Source: Nitrospirales bacterium (GTDB taxonomy: Bacteria > Nitrospirota > Nitrospiria > Nitrospirales > UBA8639). From it: a DNA stretch of 37,107 bases. The stretch lies in contig JAJEJG010000021.1 in assembly GCA_022828225.1 (NCBI GenBank), positions 1-37,107 on the forward strand. Direction: 5' to 3'. The notes under the pieces are model-generated. The model saw only the letters and a list, made by a program, of their open reading frames with translations, was not told the DNA's origin and ran no database searches. Both the position numbers and the translations under genes were made by a program. This document shows, one piece after another, positions 6,086 to 31,445 of the stretch. Every line of letters starts with the position of its first letter. The stretch's first letter is position 1.

Positions 6086-6375
6086 GAATGCCTCCAAGTC
6101 TTGCTGCTATTATCAACGAAAAAATCCACGATCAAGCTATTATTCCCGCAGCCGCCTTCATCAGACAGCCACCACGGCCGATTCCCCTCCTTTGTAAGGA
6201 CGGGAACTTTTTCCGAAGAGGGAAAAGTTGGGAGGTAGAACCTAAGCCAACGCGGGTAGGCCCCGTGTGCTTGTTGTTGCCTGTACACCCTAAACATTCG
6301 ACTCTACCCCACCTGACCTCCCCTTACAAAGGGGAGGAAAAAATGCCGACCTCTCACGCCGACGCCTTCCTCAGT
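6086..6375. other. Intergenic stretch between mrp and moaB
   Basis: About 290 bases without a credible gene. The centre is taken up by the paired inverted repeat element at 6183-6340. The promoter of the mrp-moeA-mobB run should lie in 6090-6180, where the sequence is AT-rich (TATTATCAACGAAAAAATCC), but no single -35/-10 pair stands out. Confidence 0.5.
6183..6340. repeat. Paired inverted repeat element, CCTTTGTAAGG family, copy 1
   Basis: A left unit TCCCCTCCTTTGTAAGGA followed by GGGAGGTAGAA, then about 85 bases of spacer, then the right unit in opposite orientation: TCTACCCCACC... CTCCCCTTACAAAGGGGAGG. The same two-unit arrangement recurs at 23056-23172 and 30229-30346. It resembles the BIME/REP class of bacterial intergenic repeats. 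Each unit can form a hairpin of its own and the two can pair with each other. Confidence 0.75.
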
Positions 6376-22963: not shown

Positions 22964-23233
22964 GTCATCCTTGTATGTGTTCAGTCATTCCCTTCGACTG
23001 CGCTCAGGACAGGCGTTGACAGAATGCTACGCACAGTGAAGCAGGAGTATCCTGTTCCTCCCCTTTGTAAGGGGAAGATAGGAGGGGTAGAGTCAAGCAT
23101 GTCCGGAGCAGGGTCCCCCGTCATCGCCGCAAGTTCTACCTCCCCTCGCCCCTCCTTACAAAGGAGGGGAATTAGAGCACAGAAGAAACGGGCAGAAATT
23201 GTCAGCGAATGAGTAAACACATACAGGAATGAC
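22964..23233. mobile_element. MITE-like element with IS-type terminal inverted repeats
   Basis: A 270-base non-coding block between the phosphatase gene and a small membrane-protein gene. The left end (22964-22984) and the reverse complement of the right end (23213-23233) agree at 17 of 21 positions. The left end matches the reverse complement of 120-140 at 20 of 21, and the right end extends the match with the transposase end (30 of 35, 23199-23233 versus 106-140). No transposase is inside, so this would be a non-autonomous derivative. Inside lie a TTCGAC-type repeat (22991-23013) and the paired repeat at 23056-23172. No target duplication was found. Confidence 0.55.
23056..23172. repeat. 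Paired inverted repeat element, CCTTTGTAAGG family, copy 2
   Basis: Left unit CCTCCCCTTTGTAAGGGGA then GGAGGGGTAGAG, spacer of about 45 bases, right unit TTCTACCTCCCC..CCCTCCTTACAAAGGAGGGG. The two units are in inverted orientation, as in copies 1 and 3. It lies wholly within the MITE-like block at 22964-23233. Confidence 0.75.
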
Positions 23234-25563: not shown

Positions 25564-25596
25564 CTCCCCCTCAAGGGGGGAGTGACGGGAGGTAGT
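25564..25596. repeat. Single unit of the GC-rich repeat, at the end of the ATPase gene
   Basis: CTCCCCCTCAAGGGGGGAG is a hairpin, followed by TGACGGGAGGTAGTACC. The GGGAGGTAG tail is as in the units at 6183 and 30229. It overlaps the last codons of the DUF4143 ATPase and includes its stop codon. Confidence 0.6.
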
Positions 25597-26764
25597 ACCG
25601 GGCGCGCAATTCTTCGGCGAATTCGCGAAGGCCGACCGACTCCAGAGTTTTCGAGATCGGATAGCGGTCATCGCCGGCATGGACGACAAAAGCGCGGGAT
25701 GGATTGATATCCGCACAGGCGAAGTGGAATCCCCGTTCGACGCTCGCGGACAGCGAACGTTTGATTTCGATGGCCCACAATGCGCCATCGTCATGTTCAA
25801 GCACGAGGTCGATTTCGGCACCGGTTCTCGTGCGGTAGAAAAACGGTTTCACGGACCGCGGCATGACGGCAAGCAGCGTCTCGATCACGAATCCCTCCCA
25901 ACTTCGACCAACAACCGGATGCCCCGCGAGTTGTTCCAGCGACGCAATCCCCAACAGGGCATGCACCAGACCACTATCCCGCACGTACACTTTCGGTGAC
26001 TTGACGAGACGTTTGCCGGTATTGATCCGAAAGGGCGGCAACCGGCGTACCAGCAACAAATCAGACAACAGATCCACATAGCGGGTAACCGATTGCGCGC
26101 TGACCTCCAGCGCCCTCGCAAGATCCGACGCATTCAGCATCGCACCCTGGCGATGGGCAAGCATCGTCCACAGCCGATCCAAGGTCGTGGCCGGAACGCG
26201 CGAACCAAACGTCGCCACGTCGCGCTCCAGGTAGGTACGGATGAAATCCTTGCGTAAGGCCAAACTATCCCCGTCGCTGTCAGCCAGATAGCTGTCAGGG
26301 AACCCGCCACGCAGCCACAGCCGTTCACGCGACGAGCGCGCATCCTCGATCTCGAGTGCGGAAAACGGGGCCAGATCAATGTATGCAATGCGCCCGGCCA
26401 GGGTTTCACCGGATTGGCGCAACAGGTCGACCGAGGCAGACCCCAGGATCAGGAACCGCCCCTTGCCTTTCCCTTTTCGCCGGCCCCTGTCGATCACACC
26501 ACGTAAGATCTGAAACAATTCCGGCATCCGGTGGATTTCATCGAGAATGACGAGCCGATCTTCCGCATGGTCGAAGAACAGCACGGGTTCGGCAAGCCGA
26601 TTCCGGTCATCCCGGTCTTCGAGATCAAGATACAGCGCATCGCGCAGGCGACCAAGCTCCAGTGCCAACGTGGTTTTACCAACTTGCCGCGGCCCGATTA
26701 GGGCCACGGCAGCTTGCCGATGCAGCGCGTTTTCGATATCTCCGGCAATGGTTCTTTTGATCAT
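25571..26764 (-). CDS. AAA ATPase with DUF4143 domain
   Basis: A 397-residue protein of the large family of AAA-14/DUF4143 ATPases. Walker A is GPRQVGKTT (K30), Walker B LVILDEIHR (D75-E76), and sensor-like GSASVDLLRQSGETLAGRI follows. The C-terminal DUF4143 part includes a winged helix (ASDLARALEVSAQSVTRYVDLL) and a PD-(D/E)XK-like end GAEIDLVL..GALWAIEIK. The cell role is not known; members are common in accessory DNA. The start is ATG 26764, which lies two bases from an inverted repeat. The last residues, LPSLPP, are encoded by a dispersed repeat, so the original C-terminus may have been replaced. Confidence 0.88.
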   Translation of the reverse strand: MIKRTIAGDIENALHRQAAVALIGPRQVGKTTLALELGRLRDALYLDLEDRDDRNRLAEPVLFFDHAEDRLVILDEIHRMPELFQILRGVIDRGRRKGKGKGRFLILGSASVDLLRQSGETLAGRIAYIDLAPFSALEIEDARSSRERLWLRGGFPDSYLADSDGDSLALRKDFIRTYLERDVATFGSRVPATTLDRLWTMLAHRQGAMLNASDLARALEVSAQSVTRYVDLLSDLLLVRRLPPFRINTGKRLVKSPKVYVRDSGLVHALLGIASLEQLAGHPVVGRSWEGFVIETLLAVMPRSVKPFFYRTRTGAEIDLVLEHDDGALWAIEIKRSLSASVERGFHFACADINPSRAFVVHAGDDRYPISKTLESVGLREFAEELRARYYLPSLPP

Positions 26765-26765
26765 A

Positions 26766-26804
26766 TTGTTGCATTTTATCCATGAGTTGGATAATTTACA
26801 ACAA
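26766..26804 (-). promoter_or_regulatory. Imperfect inverted repeat just upstream of the ATPase start
   Basis: The arms TTGTTGCATTTTATCCA and TTGGATAATTTACAACAA pair at 14 of 17 positions around TGAG. The minus-strand start codon follows one base later. Such a site could be an operator for autoregulation or, in RNA, a hairpin that blocks the start; the AT-rich GGATAA and TTTTAT parts could also form promoter boxes. No gene for a regulator of it is nearby. Confidence 0.55.
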
Positions 26805-26910
26805 TCAAGTCTGAAAAAACCTCTAGAACCCTCGACTCCAAGGTTCTGTCGTTTTCGTTTTTCACGATGGACTATACGGGTTTCGCATGACTCTCTCACC
26901 TTGACGTCCC

Positions 26911-28257
26911 ATGCCGACACGTCTCACGGAACTGTCCATTCTATTTTTCAGCGTGGCCAAGTGGTTTCTCCTGGCCAGTGCCGTGGGCCTGCTCGTCGGA
27001 CTCTCCTCCACGCTGTTTCTCATCGTCCTCCAGAGCAGCGTTGCGCTCACGCAATCGTTCCCCTACCTGTTTCTTTTCCTGCCGGTCAGCCTGGCGCTCA
27101 CCGGGATCATGACGGGCCGCTTCGCCTTCAGAGCGCGAGGGTACGGCACGGAACAAGTGATTCGGGCCATTCATCAAGAGGGCGGGAAAATCCACCCTCG
27201 CGTGATTCCCGTCAAATTTATCGCTACCATCGTCACGATCGCGAGTGGAGGGTCGGCAGGCAACGTCGGGCCGTGTGCGCAAATCGGCGGAGCGTTGTGC
27301 TCGACGTTCGGACAATTCATTCGCATGGAGGACGTCGACCGAGTCCGACTCGTCGTCTGCGGAATCAGCGCGGGCTTCGCCGCCGTGTTCGGCACCCCGG
27401 TCGCCGGCGCCCTGTTTGCCATCGAAGCGCTCTGGGTCGGACGATTTTCTTACGGGGCACTGTTCCCTTCACTGGTTTCGGCGTTTGTCGGGTATCAGGT
27501 TGCCGCAAACCTGGGCATTGCGTACCTCTCGCCCGTTTTCCCATCGGTCCCGTCGTTGAACGTTCCCTTTTTACTCAGCGTCGGATTAGCGGGCATCACG
27601 TTCGGCGTGGCCGCGTTTGCCTTCGTGGAAGTGATGGGACTCGGAAAACGGCTCGCCCTGTTGACCAAGACCTCCTCCGTGCTGACCGGTATGATCGGCG
27701 GGTTCATTCTCATCGCCGTCACGTTCCTTGTTTCGGACGACTATCTCGGCCTGGGCTGGACGACGGTTGCTCAAGCGCTCAAGGGCGACGACCTTCCCTG
27801 GTACGCCTTTGCCGTCAAAGCGGTCACCACCAGCGTGACGCTGAACTTCGGCGGCAGCGGCGGCATTCTGCTTCCCCTCTGTTTTTACGGGGCCGCCTTG
27901 GGATCGGCCTTGGCTCAGGGGTTGGGGATGGACCCCGCCACCCTTGCCGCACTGGGATTCGTGAGCGTGTTGGCCGGCGCCACCAATACGCCCATCGCGT
28001 CTTTGGTATTGGCCATGGAATTGTTCGGCCCTGCCATTGCACCGTACGCGGCAACAAGTTGCGCCATGAGTTACCTGCTCACGGGTCACCGCAGCGTCAT
28101 CCCCACACAACTCCTGAACGAATCCAAGTCCCCGTCATTTGCACTCGCGTCTCAACAGGAAATCGAACGGGTCACGTTGGCCATCAAATCCCGGCGCAAG
28201 ACCCTCACGAAAATGTTCTTCGGCAAACGGTCCTCGCCTGACTCCTCCGACGAATAA
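26911..28257 (+). CDS. CLC-family chloride channel/transporter homologue
   Basis: A 448-residue membrane protein with the CLC fold of about 16-18 helices. The first anion-binding motif, normally GSGIP, reads GYGTE at residues 77-81. The second, normally GREGP or GKEGP, reads GNVGP at 117-121 within SGGSAGNVGPCAQIGG, so the gating glutamate is Val119. GTPVAGALFAIE and GGSGGILLPL (GxFxP counterpart) follow. No CBS domains follow the membrane part, only a basic tail. CLC proteins without the gating glutamate behave as channels in animal ClC-K; here that is inference. Start ATG 26911 has no clear ribosome binding site. Confidence 0.88.
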   Translation: MPTRLTELSILFFSVAKWFLLASAVGLLVGLSSTLFLIVLQSSVALTQSFPYLFLFLPVSLALTGIMTGRFAFRARGYGTEQVIRAIHQEGGKIHPRVIPVKFIATIVTIASGGSAGNVGPCAQIGGALCSTFGQFIRMEDVDRVRLVVCGISAGFAAVFGTPVAGALFAIEALWVGRFSYGALFPSLVSAFVGYQVAANLGIAYLSPVFPSVPSLNVPFLLSVGLAGITFGVAAFAFVEVMGLGKRLALLTKTSSVLTGMIGGFILIAVTFLVSDDYLGLGWTTVAQALKGDDLPWYAFAVKAVTTSVTLNFGGSGGILLPLCFYGAALGSALAQGLGMDPATLAALGFVSVLAGATNTPIASLVLAMELFGPAIAPYAATSCAMSYLLTGHRSVIPTQLLNESKSPSFALASQQEIERVTLAIKSRRKTLTKMFFGKRSSPDSSDE

Positions 28258-28341: not shown

Positions 28342-30201
28342 ATGCCACCTGCCATACACCCAGTCGATCTGCTTCGAGTCCTTCGACACCAACGTCTGAC
28401 CCCGGCCATTGTCTTTTTGACGTCCCGGCGCGCCTGTGACGAAGCCATCGGGAGCTTCGAACACCGCCAACTCCCTATTCCCCCCACGCGGTCGTCGGCC
28501 ATCACGGACGTACTGGATCACATGATCGCCGAATATCCCAGTATTGCCGACCACCCTCTCATCCCCACGGTCCAACGCTATGGCGTGGCGGCCCATCACG
28601 CCGGACATTTGCCGTCCTGGAAAATCGCCGTCGAAGAACTCATGCGTCAGGGGTGCCTGGATGCGGTCTTCGCCACGACCACCCTGGCTGCCGGTGTGGA
28701 CTTTCCGGCCCGCACCGTGGTGATAACCCAATCAAGTGTGCGCAAGGATCGCGATATCGTGGAACTGACCGTCAACGAAATCCAACAACTCGCCGGCCGC
28801 GGGGGAAGACGCGGGAAAGATTACGTGGGGTTCGTCGTGGTCACGCCGTCGCCGTACATCGACCTCGGCCCCATCGCGAACGGTCTCACAAACCACCCGG
28901 AGCCGATCGACAGTCAATTCGTCGTGTCCTATCCCATGGTCCTGAATCTCCTGAAAGCTCATTCCATCGACCACATCCAACCCATTCTCGAAAAGAGTTT
29001 CGCGCAATTCCAACTCAACCAACGCACCGACGCGTATGAAACAAAGCTGGATGACGTGGAAGCGCAACTGGAGACCTATGGCCAGCGGGAATGCGCCGAT
29101 TGGATCGCGCAGTGGCAGTCCTTCAGTCTGGCCAAGAAACGCCGCTCGCACCATCGCCGGAAAACCCAGCACGACCCGCCGGAAATCTCGGCGCAATTGG
29201 CGTTTCTGACGCCGGGGCGCGCGGTCGAACTCTCCAAGGATTACGCCATCGTCCTGCGGCAATATCGAAGCCGTGGCCAAGGGGCTCCGATGTTGACCGT
29301 GATACGCAGCAGCGGACGCATCGTGGAATATCCCGCGAGCGCGGTGACCGCGGTGATCGATGAAGTCATCGACGTCACGGAGGCCCGCCGGTTTCCCTGG
29401 TGCACGCCCCAAAGCCTGGAGCACGCGGTTACAACGTTGGAACAGTTTCCCGCTCGCTTACGACGTCTCCCTATTCGCGTGGACCCGAACGGCGCCGACA
29501 ACCCGATCCTGACCGAAACGCTCATGGACGAATTTCCCTGTCCAACCTGTCCGTCGCGTCCCGCGTGCCAAAAAGACCATCCGCAGGCCCTGAAACTGCG
29601 GCAGGAAGAGCATCGCCTGACGAAAACCATTCATGCCTTGCGCACGGAACTCTGGCATCGCTTCCAGCAACACATCGAAGTATTACAGAAGTTCGGCTAC
29701 CTGACGCCCGCGTGCCAACTGACCTCCGAAGGCGACTGGGCCCGTCTCATTCGCATCAATCATTCGTTACTCATCACGGAACTGATCAGGATGGGAGCCT
29801 TTGAAGGAATCAGCGCCTCACTCCTGGCCGGCGTGTTGGCAAGCATTGCCCATGACGACGACCGGCCGGCCTCGTTTGCCGGACGTCAACAGGCCCTGAT
29901 ATCCACCCTTGGACAGGTCAGGAAGATCGCCCACTCGTTGTCCGCGTACGAAGAGCCGCCCCTTCTGCGGCTGGACGTCGCCGCGATTGTCGACCGGTGG
30001 ATTGCCGAACCCACCCTGCCCTGGAGCGAACTCATTCACGCGACCACCATGGCGGAAGGCGACATCTATCGACTTCTGGCCAGGACCCTGGAATATCTGT
30101 CGCAGTTGCACGGCTTACGTTCGACGCATCCCGGGCTGGCCGATATCGCCAGGGACGCAATGGATCTCATGCGCCGTGACGTCCTGCAGGAATTGCCATG
30201 A
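28342..30201 (+). CDS. Ski2/HelY-like helicase, C-terminal half (RecA2 and accessory domains)
   Basis: The 619-residue protein begins at the second RecA domain: PAIVFLTSRRACDEA (motif IV), GVAAHHAGHLPSWK, VFATTTLAAGVDFPARTVVI (motif V) and QLAGRGGRRG (motif VI, about 148-157; usual form QxxGRAGRxG). Winged-helix, ratchet and a DSHCT-like region follow. C400, C403 and C409 with nearby H (CPTCPSRPACQKDH) recall the cysteine/histidine cluster of HelY-type proteins. There is no Walker A. The missing first RecA domain is encoded by the next gene, 30384-31445. Ski2-like enzymes unwind RNA or DNA. Start ATG 28342 is the only one in frame after the CLC stop. Confidence 0.85.
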   Translation: MPPAIHPVDLLRVLRHQRLTPAIVFLTSRRACDEAIGSFEHRQLPIPPTRSSAITDVLDHMIAEYPSIADHPLIPTVQRYGVAAHHAGHLPSWKIAVEELMRQGCLDAVFATTTLAAGVDFPARTVVITQSSVRKDRDIVELTVNEIQQLAGRGGRRGKDYVGFVVVTPSPYIDLGPIANGLTNHPEPIDSQFVVSYPMVLNLLKAHSIDHIQPILEKSFAQFQLNQRTDAYETKLDDVEAQLETYGQRECADWIAQWQSFSLAKKRRSHHRRKTQHDPPEISAQLAFLTPGRAVELSKDYAIVLRQYRSRGQGAPMLTVIRSSGRIVEYPASAVTAVIDEVIDVTEARRFPWCTPQSLEHAVTTLEQFPARLRRLPIRVDPNGADNPILTETLMDEFPCPTCPSRPACQKDHPQALKLRQEEHRLTKTIHALRTELWHRFQQHIEVLQKFGYLTPACQLTSEGDWARLIRINHSLLITELIRMGAFEGISASLLAGVLASIAHDDDRPASFAGRQQALISTLGQVRKIAHSLSAYEEPPLLRLDVAAIVDRWIAEPTLPWSELIHATTMAEGDIYRLLARTLEYLSQLHGLRSTHPGLADIARDAMDLMRRDVLQELP

Positions 30202-30383
30202 GGGGCTATGAAGGAACGGTACACGCAGTTCCCCTCCTTTGTAAGGAGGGGTGAGGGGAGGTAGAGGCATTTGAAGAACGGCAAAACCCCGTGTTTCATG
30301 AACGGTGAGATCTACCCCTCCTACCCTCCCCTTACAAAGGGGAGGAAAAGAAAAAAACAGCCGACCGTGGAGCGAGCAATCGC
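30202..30383. other. Gap between the two helicase halves
   Basis: These 182 bases hold the paired repeat at 30229-30346 and, apart from it, only short flanks. No gene or frame joins the two halves. The second gene would need its own promoter or read-through across the repeat. Confidence 0.6.
30229..30346. repeat. Paired inverted repeat element, CCTTTGTAAGG family, copy 3
   Basis: Left unit TTCCCCTCCTTTGTAAGGAG then GTGAGGGGAGGTAGAG, spacer of about 45 bases, right unit ATCTACCCCTCCTACCCTCC and CTTACAAAGGGGAGG in opposite direction. This is the clearest copy in the window and lies between the two helicase genes. Confidence 0.8.
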
Positions 30384-31445
30384 ATGACGAACGACACCTT
30401 GGCAAACCAACTGGCCGGTCTTTCCGTCAGACTGCTTCACCGTCTGGCGAAGAACCGGGTACCGAGACATTTCCGAATGGGGAAAAACCGGCTGATTCAA
30501 ACATTGCTGTCGCTGTCGCCCGAGCAACAGGCGGACTTGGAAACGCACCTTTCTTCACTCCTGCAAGCACACCCGCGCGTTCCGCAACCGCCCAAGCACG
30601 GCAAAGGCGACAAGCCGAAGCACGAGCCCAATGTGGTATCCCGGCCTGCCCTGCCCCCTCAGCCAAGCGTACCGGCAAAACCGGCGATCAGCCTACAAGC
30701 GTTGCTTGAAGGGATCGGCGTGCCTCCGCCGCAATCGTTCAAGCCTGATGACTGGCAACAGGAAGCCATCGACCGTTTGACGACCAACGACGTCATCTTG
30801 AGCGTGCCTACCGGCAGCGGCAAAACCTATGTGGCAATCGAAGCCATGCGGCGCGCCATCAAGGCCGACCGGATGGTTATCTACACGTCTCCCCTGAAGG
30901 CGCTTTCAAATACAAAACTGACCGAATTCTCGCAGACATTCGGCGCCGATCAGGTCGGCATTCTCACGGGTGACCGTCGTGACAATCCGCAAGCGCCGAT
31001 CTTGATCATGACCACGGAGATCCTGCGGAATTTACTGTACGATGCCGCGAGCGGTGAAATCGACATGCGGTTGGATACCCTGGGGTTGATCATTTTGGAT
31101 GAATCACAATTTCTGGCCGATCGGGAACGGGGAGTGGTCTGGGAAGAAACGATTATTTTCTGTCCGGCGCAAGCCCGGCTGCTGCTGCTGTCGGCCTCCA
31201 TCGGGAACCCTGACGAAATCGCCGCCTGGATCAGTTCCATTCGGTCCGAGTCCTGTCACCTGATCCAACACCGCAATCGCTCGGTCCTCCTTCGCGCGGC
31301 CTATCTCGATCCTGGCGGAAAACTCGCCCCGTTCTTCCGCACGCGGGACATTGCCCGCGGCCGAGGCTTTGCCCTCCATCCGGAAACCAAACGCTTGTTT
31401 GCAAACTACGAAGAGCAGACCCTCAGCCCGCGCTCCAAACGCTGA
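30384..31445 (+). CDS. Ski2/HelY-like helicase, N-terminal half (RecA1, ATP-binding)
   Basis: The 353-residue protein has an unusual N-terminal extension of about 115 residues (basic and proline-rich), then the first RecA domain: FKPDDWQQEAID (Q-like motif), VPTGSGKTYVA (Walker A, 141-149), YTSPLKALSN (Ia), MTTEILRN (Ib), ILDESQFLADRERG (motif II, 239-242, DESQ in place of DEVH) and LSASIGNPDE (motif III). It ends at the linker before RecA2 and has no motifs IV-VI. It therefore complements the preceding gene, with the order of the two halves reversed compared with a normal Ski2-like protein. Start ATG 30384 has only a weak GGAGCG ahead of it. Confidence 0.85.
   Translation: MTNDTLANQLAGLSVRLLHRLAKNRVPRHFRMGKNRLIQTLLSLSPEQQADLETHLSSLLQAHPRVPQPPKHGKGDKPKHEPNVVSRPALPPQPSVPAKPAISLQALLEGIGVPPPQSFKPDDWQQEAIDRLTTNDVILSVPTGSGKTYVAIEAMRRAIKADRMVIYTSPLKALSNTKLTEFSQTFGADQVGILTGDRRDNPQAPILIMTTEILRNLLYDAASGEIDMRLDTLGLIILDESQFLADRERGVVWEETIIFCPAQARLLLLSASIGNPDEIAAWISSIRSESCHLIQHRNRSVLLRAAYLDPGGKLAPFFRTRDIARGRGFALHPETKRLFANYEEQTLSPRSKR

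Follow-up and report, generated by a model that had tools for sequence, protein, structure and literature searches.

A Ski2/Mtr4-like helicase of Nitrospirales divided between its RecA domains into two genes, candidates for the subunits of one enzyme

Two neighbouring genes of a Nitrospirales bacterium most probably specify, between them, a single Ski2/Mtr4-like (DSHCT) superfamily 2 (SF2) helicase made of two subunits that would assemble non-covalently. The genes lie in a stretch of 37,107 nucleotides (contig JAJEJG010000021.1), here termed the window, and together make up exactly one complete helicase of this family, cut at the linker between RecA1 and RecA2. Their order is reversed, the RecA2-DSHCT half (C-half) being encoded before the RecA1 half (N-half). 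The case for a two-subunit enzyme draws on homology, on where the cut falls, on patterns of conservation, selection and occurrence, and on the predicted fold, and from these we infer that the products form a complex with ATPase and helicase activity on an RNA or DNA substrate.

SF2 helicases are taught as machines that carry both RecA domains on one chain. Here a whole bacterial order, and numerous members of a class from a different phylum, make the halves of the motor as separate proteins, and their genes are sometimes far apart in the genome.

Domains and motifs of the two genes

The two ORFs are on the same strand, 182 bp apart (Table 1). The C-half yields Pfam matches to Helicase_C and DSHCT (PF08148, E 1.6e-23, 83.8 bits against a cut-off of 22.7), and alignment places in it the RecA2 motifs IV (FLTSRR), V (FATTTLAAGVDFPART) and VI (QLAGRGGRRG). 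A stalk/SH3-like arch comes next, then cysteines in the pattern CPTC-x5-C, and last the DSHCT domain; the ORF has no Walker A motif. The N-half matches the Pfam DEAD domain (E 1.3e-21) and carries the RecA1 motifs Walker A (GSGKT), Ia, Ib, II (DESQ) and III (LSAS). It consists of a helical N-terminal extension, a variable linker and RecA1, ends in the RecA1-RecA2 linker, and contains no part of RecA2. In phmmer comparisons the N-half corresponds to RecA1 of Mtr4/Ski2 only (146-327 in Mtr4 numbering), and the C-half to everything from RecA2 to the end of DSHCT, starting at about 323 in a slightly different Mtr4 numbering. An earlier note on this DNA had placed a split at the RecA1/RecA2 boundary with the C-terminal half first, and coordinates, Pfam and phmmer all agree with it; of the motifs it assigned to the second gene, Walker A and motif II hold, and the 'SAT-like' motif III reads SAS. 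A search of the source genome found no DSHCT protein besides the C-half.

Table 1. Features of the helicase locus and its surroundings, in window positions.
Feature	Positions	Strand	Length	Basis or remark
Further repeat copies	6185-6204; 23149-23168
ATPase-like neighbour	25571-26920	-		PADLOC match
C-half, putative subunit gene	28342-30201	+	619 aa	ORF, Pfam, alignment
Cys-x2-Cys-x5-Cys motif	29539-29568			C-half residues 400-409
Dispersed palindromic repeat	30215-30365	.	~120-150 bp	Between both genes
Inverted arms of the repeat	30229-30265; 30311-30347
N-half, putative subunit gene	30384-31445	+	353 aa	ORF, Pfam, alignment
Helical N-terminal region of N-half	30384-30620		~60 aa	Present in f1-f3 Nitrospirales

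Counting both proteins together, the set of SF2 motifs is complete (Walker A and II-III in RecA1, IV-VI in RecA2), the C-terminal domain is the DSHCT domain of the Ski2-like group (Mtr4/Ski2/HelY), and the overall fold is Mtr4-like in predicted structures, both for each half and, in a pair from Blastocatellia, across the subunits. In place of the single polypeptide with RecA1 first that is standard for Ski2-like enzymes there are separate genes with RecA2-DSHCT first, and as the two RecA domains are not on one chain we regard the pair as a variant rather than a standard member of the group.

The boundaries of the C-half are constant, with the same Met start and the same Leu-Pro end in all aligned members. 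Its Cys-x2-Cys-x5-Cys motif is invariant in all aligned Nitrospirales C-halves and may be a metal site. The helical N-terminal region of the N-half, missing in two aligned f4 Nitrospirales and not seen in Blastocatellia, gives no Pfam match above its cut-off, and it folds confidently in the model of one Nitrospirales pair (L123, residues 628-688). One further N-half (L013 in genome G007) has an in-frame insertion of about 50 residues in its linker that resembles a palindromic repeat and leaves the frame unbroken.

Conservation of the split and of the reversed order

We compared gene order in 60 relatives and a phylum-wide sample, in which 119 Nitrospirales genomes hold both halves. Each half was detected in 57 of the 60 relatives, and each is single-copy in nearly every Nitrospirales genome. 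This comparison, which the earlier note had proposed, found the C-half directly followed by the N-half on the same strand in 112 of the 119 genomes, with gaps of -1 to 198 bp (median 75). In three more the order is the same with 7.2, 13.4 and 25.3 kb between the genes, in the remaining four the halves are on different contigs, and neither a fused gene nor the normal, N-half-first order occurs in any of the 119. The carriers include 16 single-contig genomes, and the closed chromosome of Ca. Nitrospira defluvii (FP929003.1) also has the C-half before the N-half.

In 76-79 of 79 paired genomes both halves retain intact ATP-site motifs. In five genome pairs dN/dS ranged from 0.05 to 0.12 in the C-half and from 0.06 to 0.13 in the RecA1 core of the N-half; both halves are thus under purifying selection, and faster evolution in the N-half is confined to its linker and N-terminus. 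The absence of internal stops, the dN/dS values and the shared arrangement in the relatives speak against decay; the earlier note had argued against recent decay from the two long open frames.

The start and stop codons of the two genes overlap (ATGA or GTGA) in several genomes. Such overlaps and very short gaps could be taken to mean that frameshifting or stop-codon read-through yields a single circularly permuted chain, with the C-half fused to the N-half. We consider this very improbable, because close relatives differ freely in the frame relation of the genes, in the stop codon and in the length of the gap, and because gaps of 7-25 kb occur in some genomes.

Exceptions to the paired state are few. 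Both halves are absent from one genome that is 99% complete (G149). In G193, a near-complete scaffolded MAG in which a cluster of polysaccharide genes follows the C-half, no N-half was detected, which may reflect either true loss or an assembly gap. Apparent loss of the N-half in G047 was discarded, the contig stopping 160 bp past the C-half, as was an apparent TAA inside the N-half of G002, a gene whose reading frame proved uninterrupted throughout. Among the sampled phylum members outside Nitrospirales nothing similar was found, apart from one single gene in normal order (G225) and distant helicases.

The space between the helicase genes also serves as a landing site for polysaccharide/nucleotide-sugar clusters of 13-25 kb or more. 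These were seen at L092/L093 (G231), L091/L289 (G193) and L104/L105 (G042), which belong to different Nitrospirales families.

The intergenic repeat

In the source genome the two genes are separated by a palindromic repeat with inverted arms (Table 1), which looks like a MITE-type element. This copy has 46 matches in its own 2.36-Mb genome, and the copies in the window share the core CCCTCCTTTGTAAGGAGGGG. Rfam finds no RNA element at gathering score in the interval 30202-30383. In the nearest relative the gap between the genes is merely 36 bp and lacks the repeat.

The presence of the repeat could suggest that a helY-like gene has been broken here, or that the assembly was wrongly joined within 30202-30383. 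We give this almost no credence, given that the arrangement is common to 112 genomes, among them 16 in a single contig and one closed chromosome, that internal stops are absent and selection is purifying, and that the nearest relative does without the repeat. The earlier note had offered rearrangement at the repeat as one of two interpretations. As the element is young, dispersed and absent from the nearest relative, while the split goes back as far as the order itself, that interpretation is unsupported; the repeat arrived after the split and has no bearing on its origin.

Predicted structure and a proposed composite ATP site

The other interpretation, that the products could assemble into one active enzyme, is well supported by order-wide conservation, intact motifs, purifying selection, retention of the genes when they are apart, and a predicted composite fold. 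For the last of these, the Nitrospirales pair L123 was modelled with AlphaFold as one C-N chain in which the stop codon was read as Gly (pLDDT 87.4, pTM 0.75). Residues 3-618 of the model match MTR4 370-1039 (Z 20.1, 2.4 A over 400 residues) and residues 707-927 match Mtr4 82-325 (Z 24.4), each half separately, since the order is reversed and structural aligners are sequential, so that the placement of the halves cannot be compared directly with Mtr4. A Blastocatellia pair was modelled with its genes in their native order, the only connection being some 240 disordered residues from intergenic DNA. The model matches human MTR4 across both subunits (623 residues, 2.4 A, Z 40.8), although with chains joined artificially, by taking stop codons as glycine, and alignments that include single-chain relatives AlphaFold may reproduce the family fold regardless of subunit binding. 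The Blastocatellia pair is thus predicted to dock as one Mtr4 core, in a model steered by family alignments.

In Mtr4 and Ski2, ATP is held between RecA1 and RecA2, and the arginines of motif VI in RecA2 reach the ATP bound to RecA1. Since each Nitrospira half keeps its own side of this site, a working enzyme would need both. In the proposed complex the N-half would supply RecA1, with Walker A and motifs II and III, and the C-half would supply RecA2 (motif V and motif VI with its arginines), the stalk/arch and the DSHCT ratchet domain. The ATP site and the nucleic-acid channel would then form at the subunit interface, as they do between domains in Mtr4/Ski2.

Alternatively, the halves might be separate proteins with new roles that never rebuild a helicase, the C-half acting for example as a nucleic-acid binding protein and the N-half being a lone ATPase-like RecA1 domain. 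Consistent with this, the genes can sit on separate contigs in f4 Nitrospirales and many Blastocatellia, and the N-half of f1-f3 has an extra N-terminal region. We nevertheless find it unlikely, because all ATP-site residues are kept although they are meaningful only jointly (I, II and III in one protein, V and VI in the other), because one genome (G149) lacks both halves, and because the predicted composite fold is Mtr4-like.

The same cut in Blastocatellia

One genome per species was scanned, followed by 162 genomes of Blastocatellia (Acidobacteriota). There, too, the helicase can be divided into two genes, the break falling at the same linker between RecA1 and RecA2, with the motifs kept in both halves. 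Separate genes are present in 86 of the 162 genomes: the N-half comes first within 1 kb in 34 and within 10 kb in three, the halves are on different contigs in 45 and on opposite strands in four, and the C-half-first order occurs in none of the 86. In 17 other Blastocatellia genomes one ORF of 835-1028 aa holds both halves; several MAGs have only one half, which genome incompleteness may explain. The linker at the break matches that of the single-gene Blastocatellia forms: the linker of a single-gene form is ...SPEIPPPHLISALRKYNLLPAIVF, the C-half of the split form starts MRFKLPEIPPPKLITALRNYNLLPAIVF and the Nitrospira C-half starts MPPSIHPVDLVATLRQRNLTPAIIF.

A homologue is present in 66 of the 247 genomes sampled from the phylum of L147, which was deposited as Proteobacteria, nearly always as one ORF of 619-1048 aa, with one exception of 347 aa. 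Pyrinomonadaceae-type C-halves (L148, L153 and L157) are only about 420-440 aa long, having lost the arch/stalk insertion, and their N-half genes are on another contig.

Evolutionary history

In IQ-TREE trees built on the joined RecA1 and RecA2 cores, Nitrospirales form one clade (100/100), and Blastocatellia fall elsewhere, together with the single-gene L147 clade (98/89). At least four to five changes between one gene and two are required, a number that is soft because of long branches in the tree. A single origin of the split without re-fusion, with all split forms in one clade, was rejected by the AU test (p 2.5e-5) on a tree in which these long branches are present. In this tree the Blastocatellia forms have a separate origin, and the history could be one of repeated fission or of fission followed by re-fusion.

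Reversed order was seen only in Nitrospirales. It could have come about by fission followed by relocation, or by a tandem duplication that then lost its outer halves; no duplication remnants were found in the source genome, each half being single-copy.

Relation to known helicases

By both sequence and fold, the best PDB matches are the eukaryotic DSHCT RNA helicases Mtr4/Ski2, which share the SF2 motifs, RecA1, RecA2, stalk/arch and DSHCT domain with the Nitrospirales proteins; they are single polypeptides with RecA1 first, whereas Nitrospirales have two polypeptides and the C-half gene first. HelY-type helicases of Actinobacteria and their cyanobacterial relatives have the identical domain set, and actinobacterial HelY-like proteins even have a Cys-x2-Cys at the position of the Nitrospirales cysteine motif, but all are single genes of about 900-1200 aa and form a separate clade in the tree. 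The Blastocatellia forms share the linker cut and differ in their normal order or unlinked genes, in the 17 one-gene genomes and in their apparently separate origin.

In open-licence PMC papers the only helicases found as split or separate polypeptides were the split reverse gyrases. Those of Nanoarchaeum equitans and Methanopyrus kandleri are helicase-containing enzymes made as two polypeptides, cut between the helicase and topoisomerase domains in N. equitans and off that boundary in M. kandleri (PMC8185306). The Nitrospirales cut is elsewhere, separating the two RecA domains of one motor. We found no description of a natural cut between two RecA domains in the open-licence PMC literature, nor any paper there with both Nitrospira and DSHCT; the helicase family is known, and its RecA1/RecA2-split form was not found described in that literature.

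Recurrent splitting between the RecA domains might mean, as a tentative idea that we rate as less likely than not, that a two-subunit motor is useful in itself, allowing on/off switching or exchange of motor halves through assembly and separation of the ATP site. If true, this would be a form of control impossible for any single-chain helicase. If confirmed, the two-subunit enzyme would provide a natural system for testing RecA domain pairing and regulated motor assembly, and tools based on split helicases could take it as a natural template. At such loci annotation pipelines will see two 'partial' helicases and may call them pseudogenes.

Other assignments considered and a neighbouring gene

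Several other assignments were set aside. Matches to Hel308 (51.9 and 55.2 bits) are far below the curated equivalog cut-off of 1200, and those to HamB of Hachiman (at most 47.4 bits) are limited to the shared RecA cores, with no HamB-like match over the whole protein. A role as a defence gene was rejected likewise, the matches to HamB, SngC and others being generic RecA only. A viral origin was discarded after no viral contig encoding a relative was found. Near the pair, on the opposite strand, an ATPase-like protein matches the PADLOC candidate defence family PDC-S01 (E 1.6e-92; Table 1), and this neighbour is conserved in G012.
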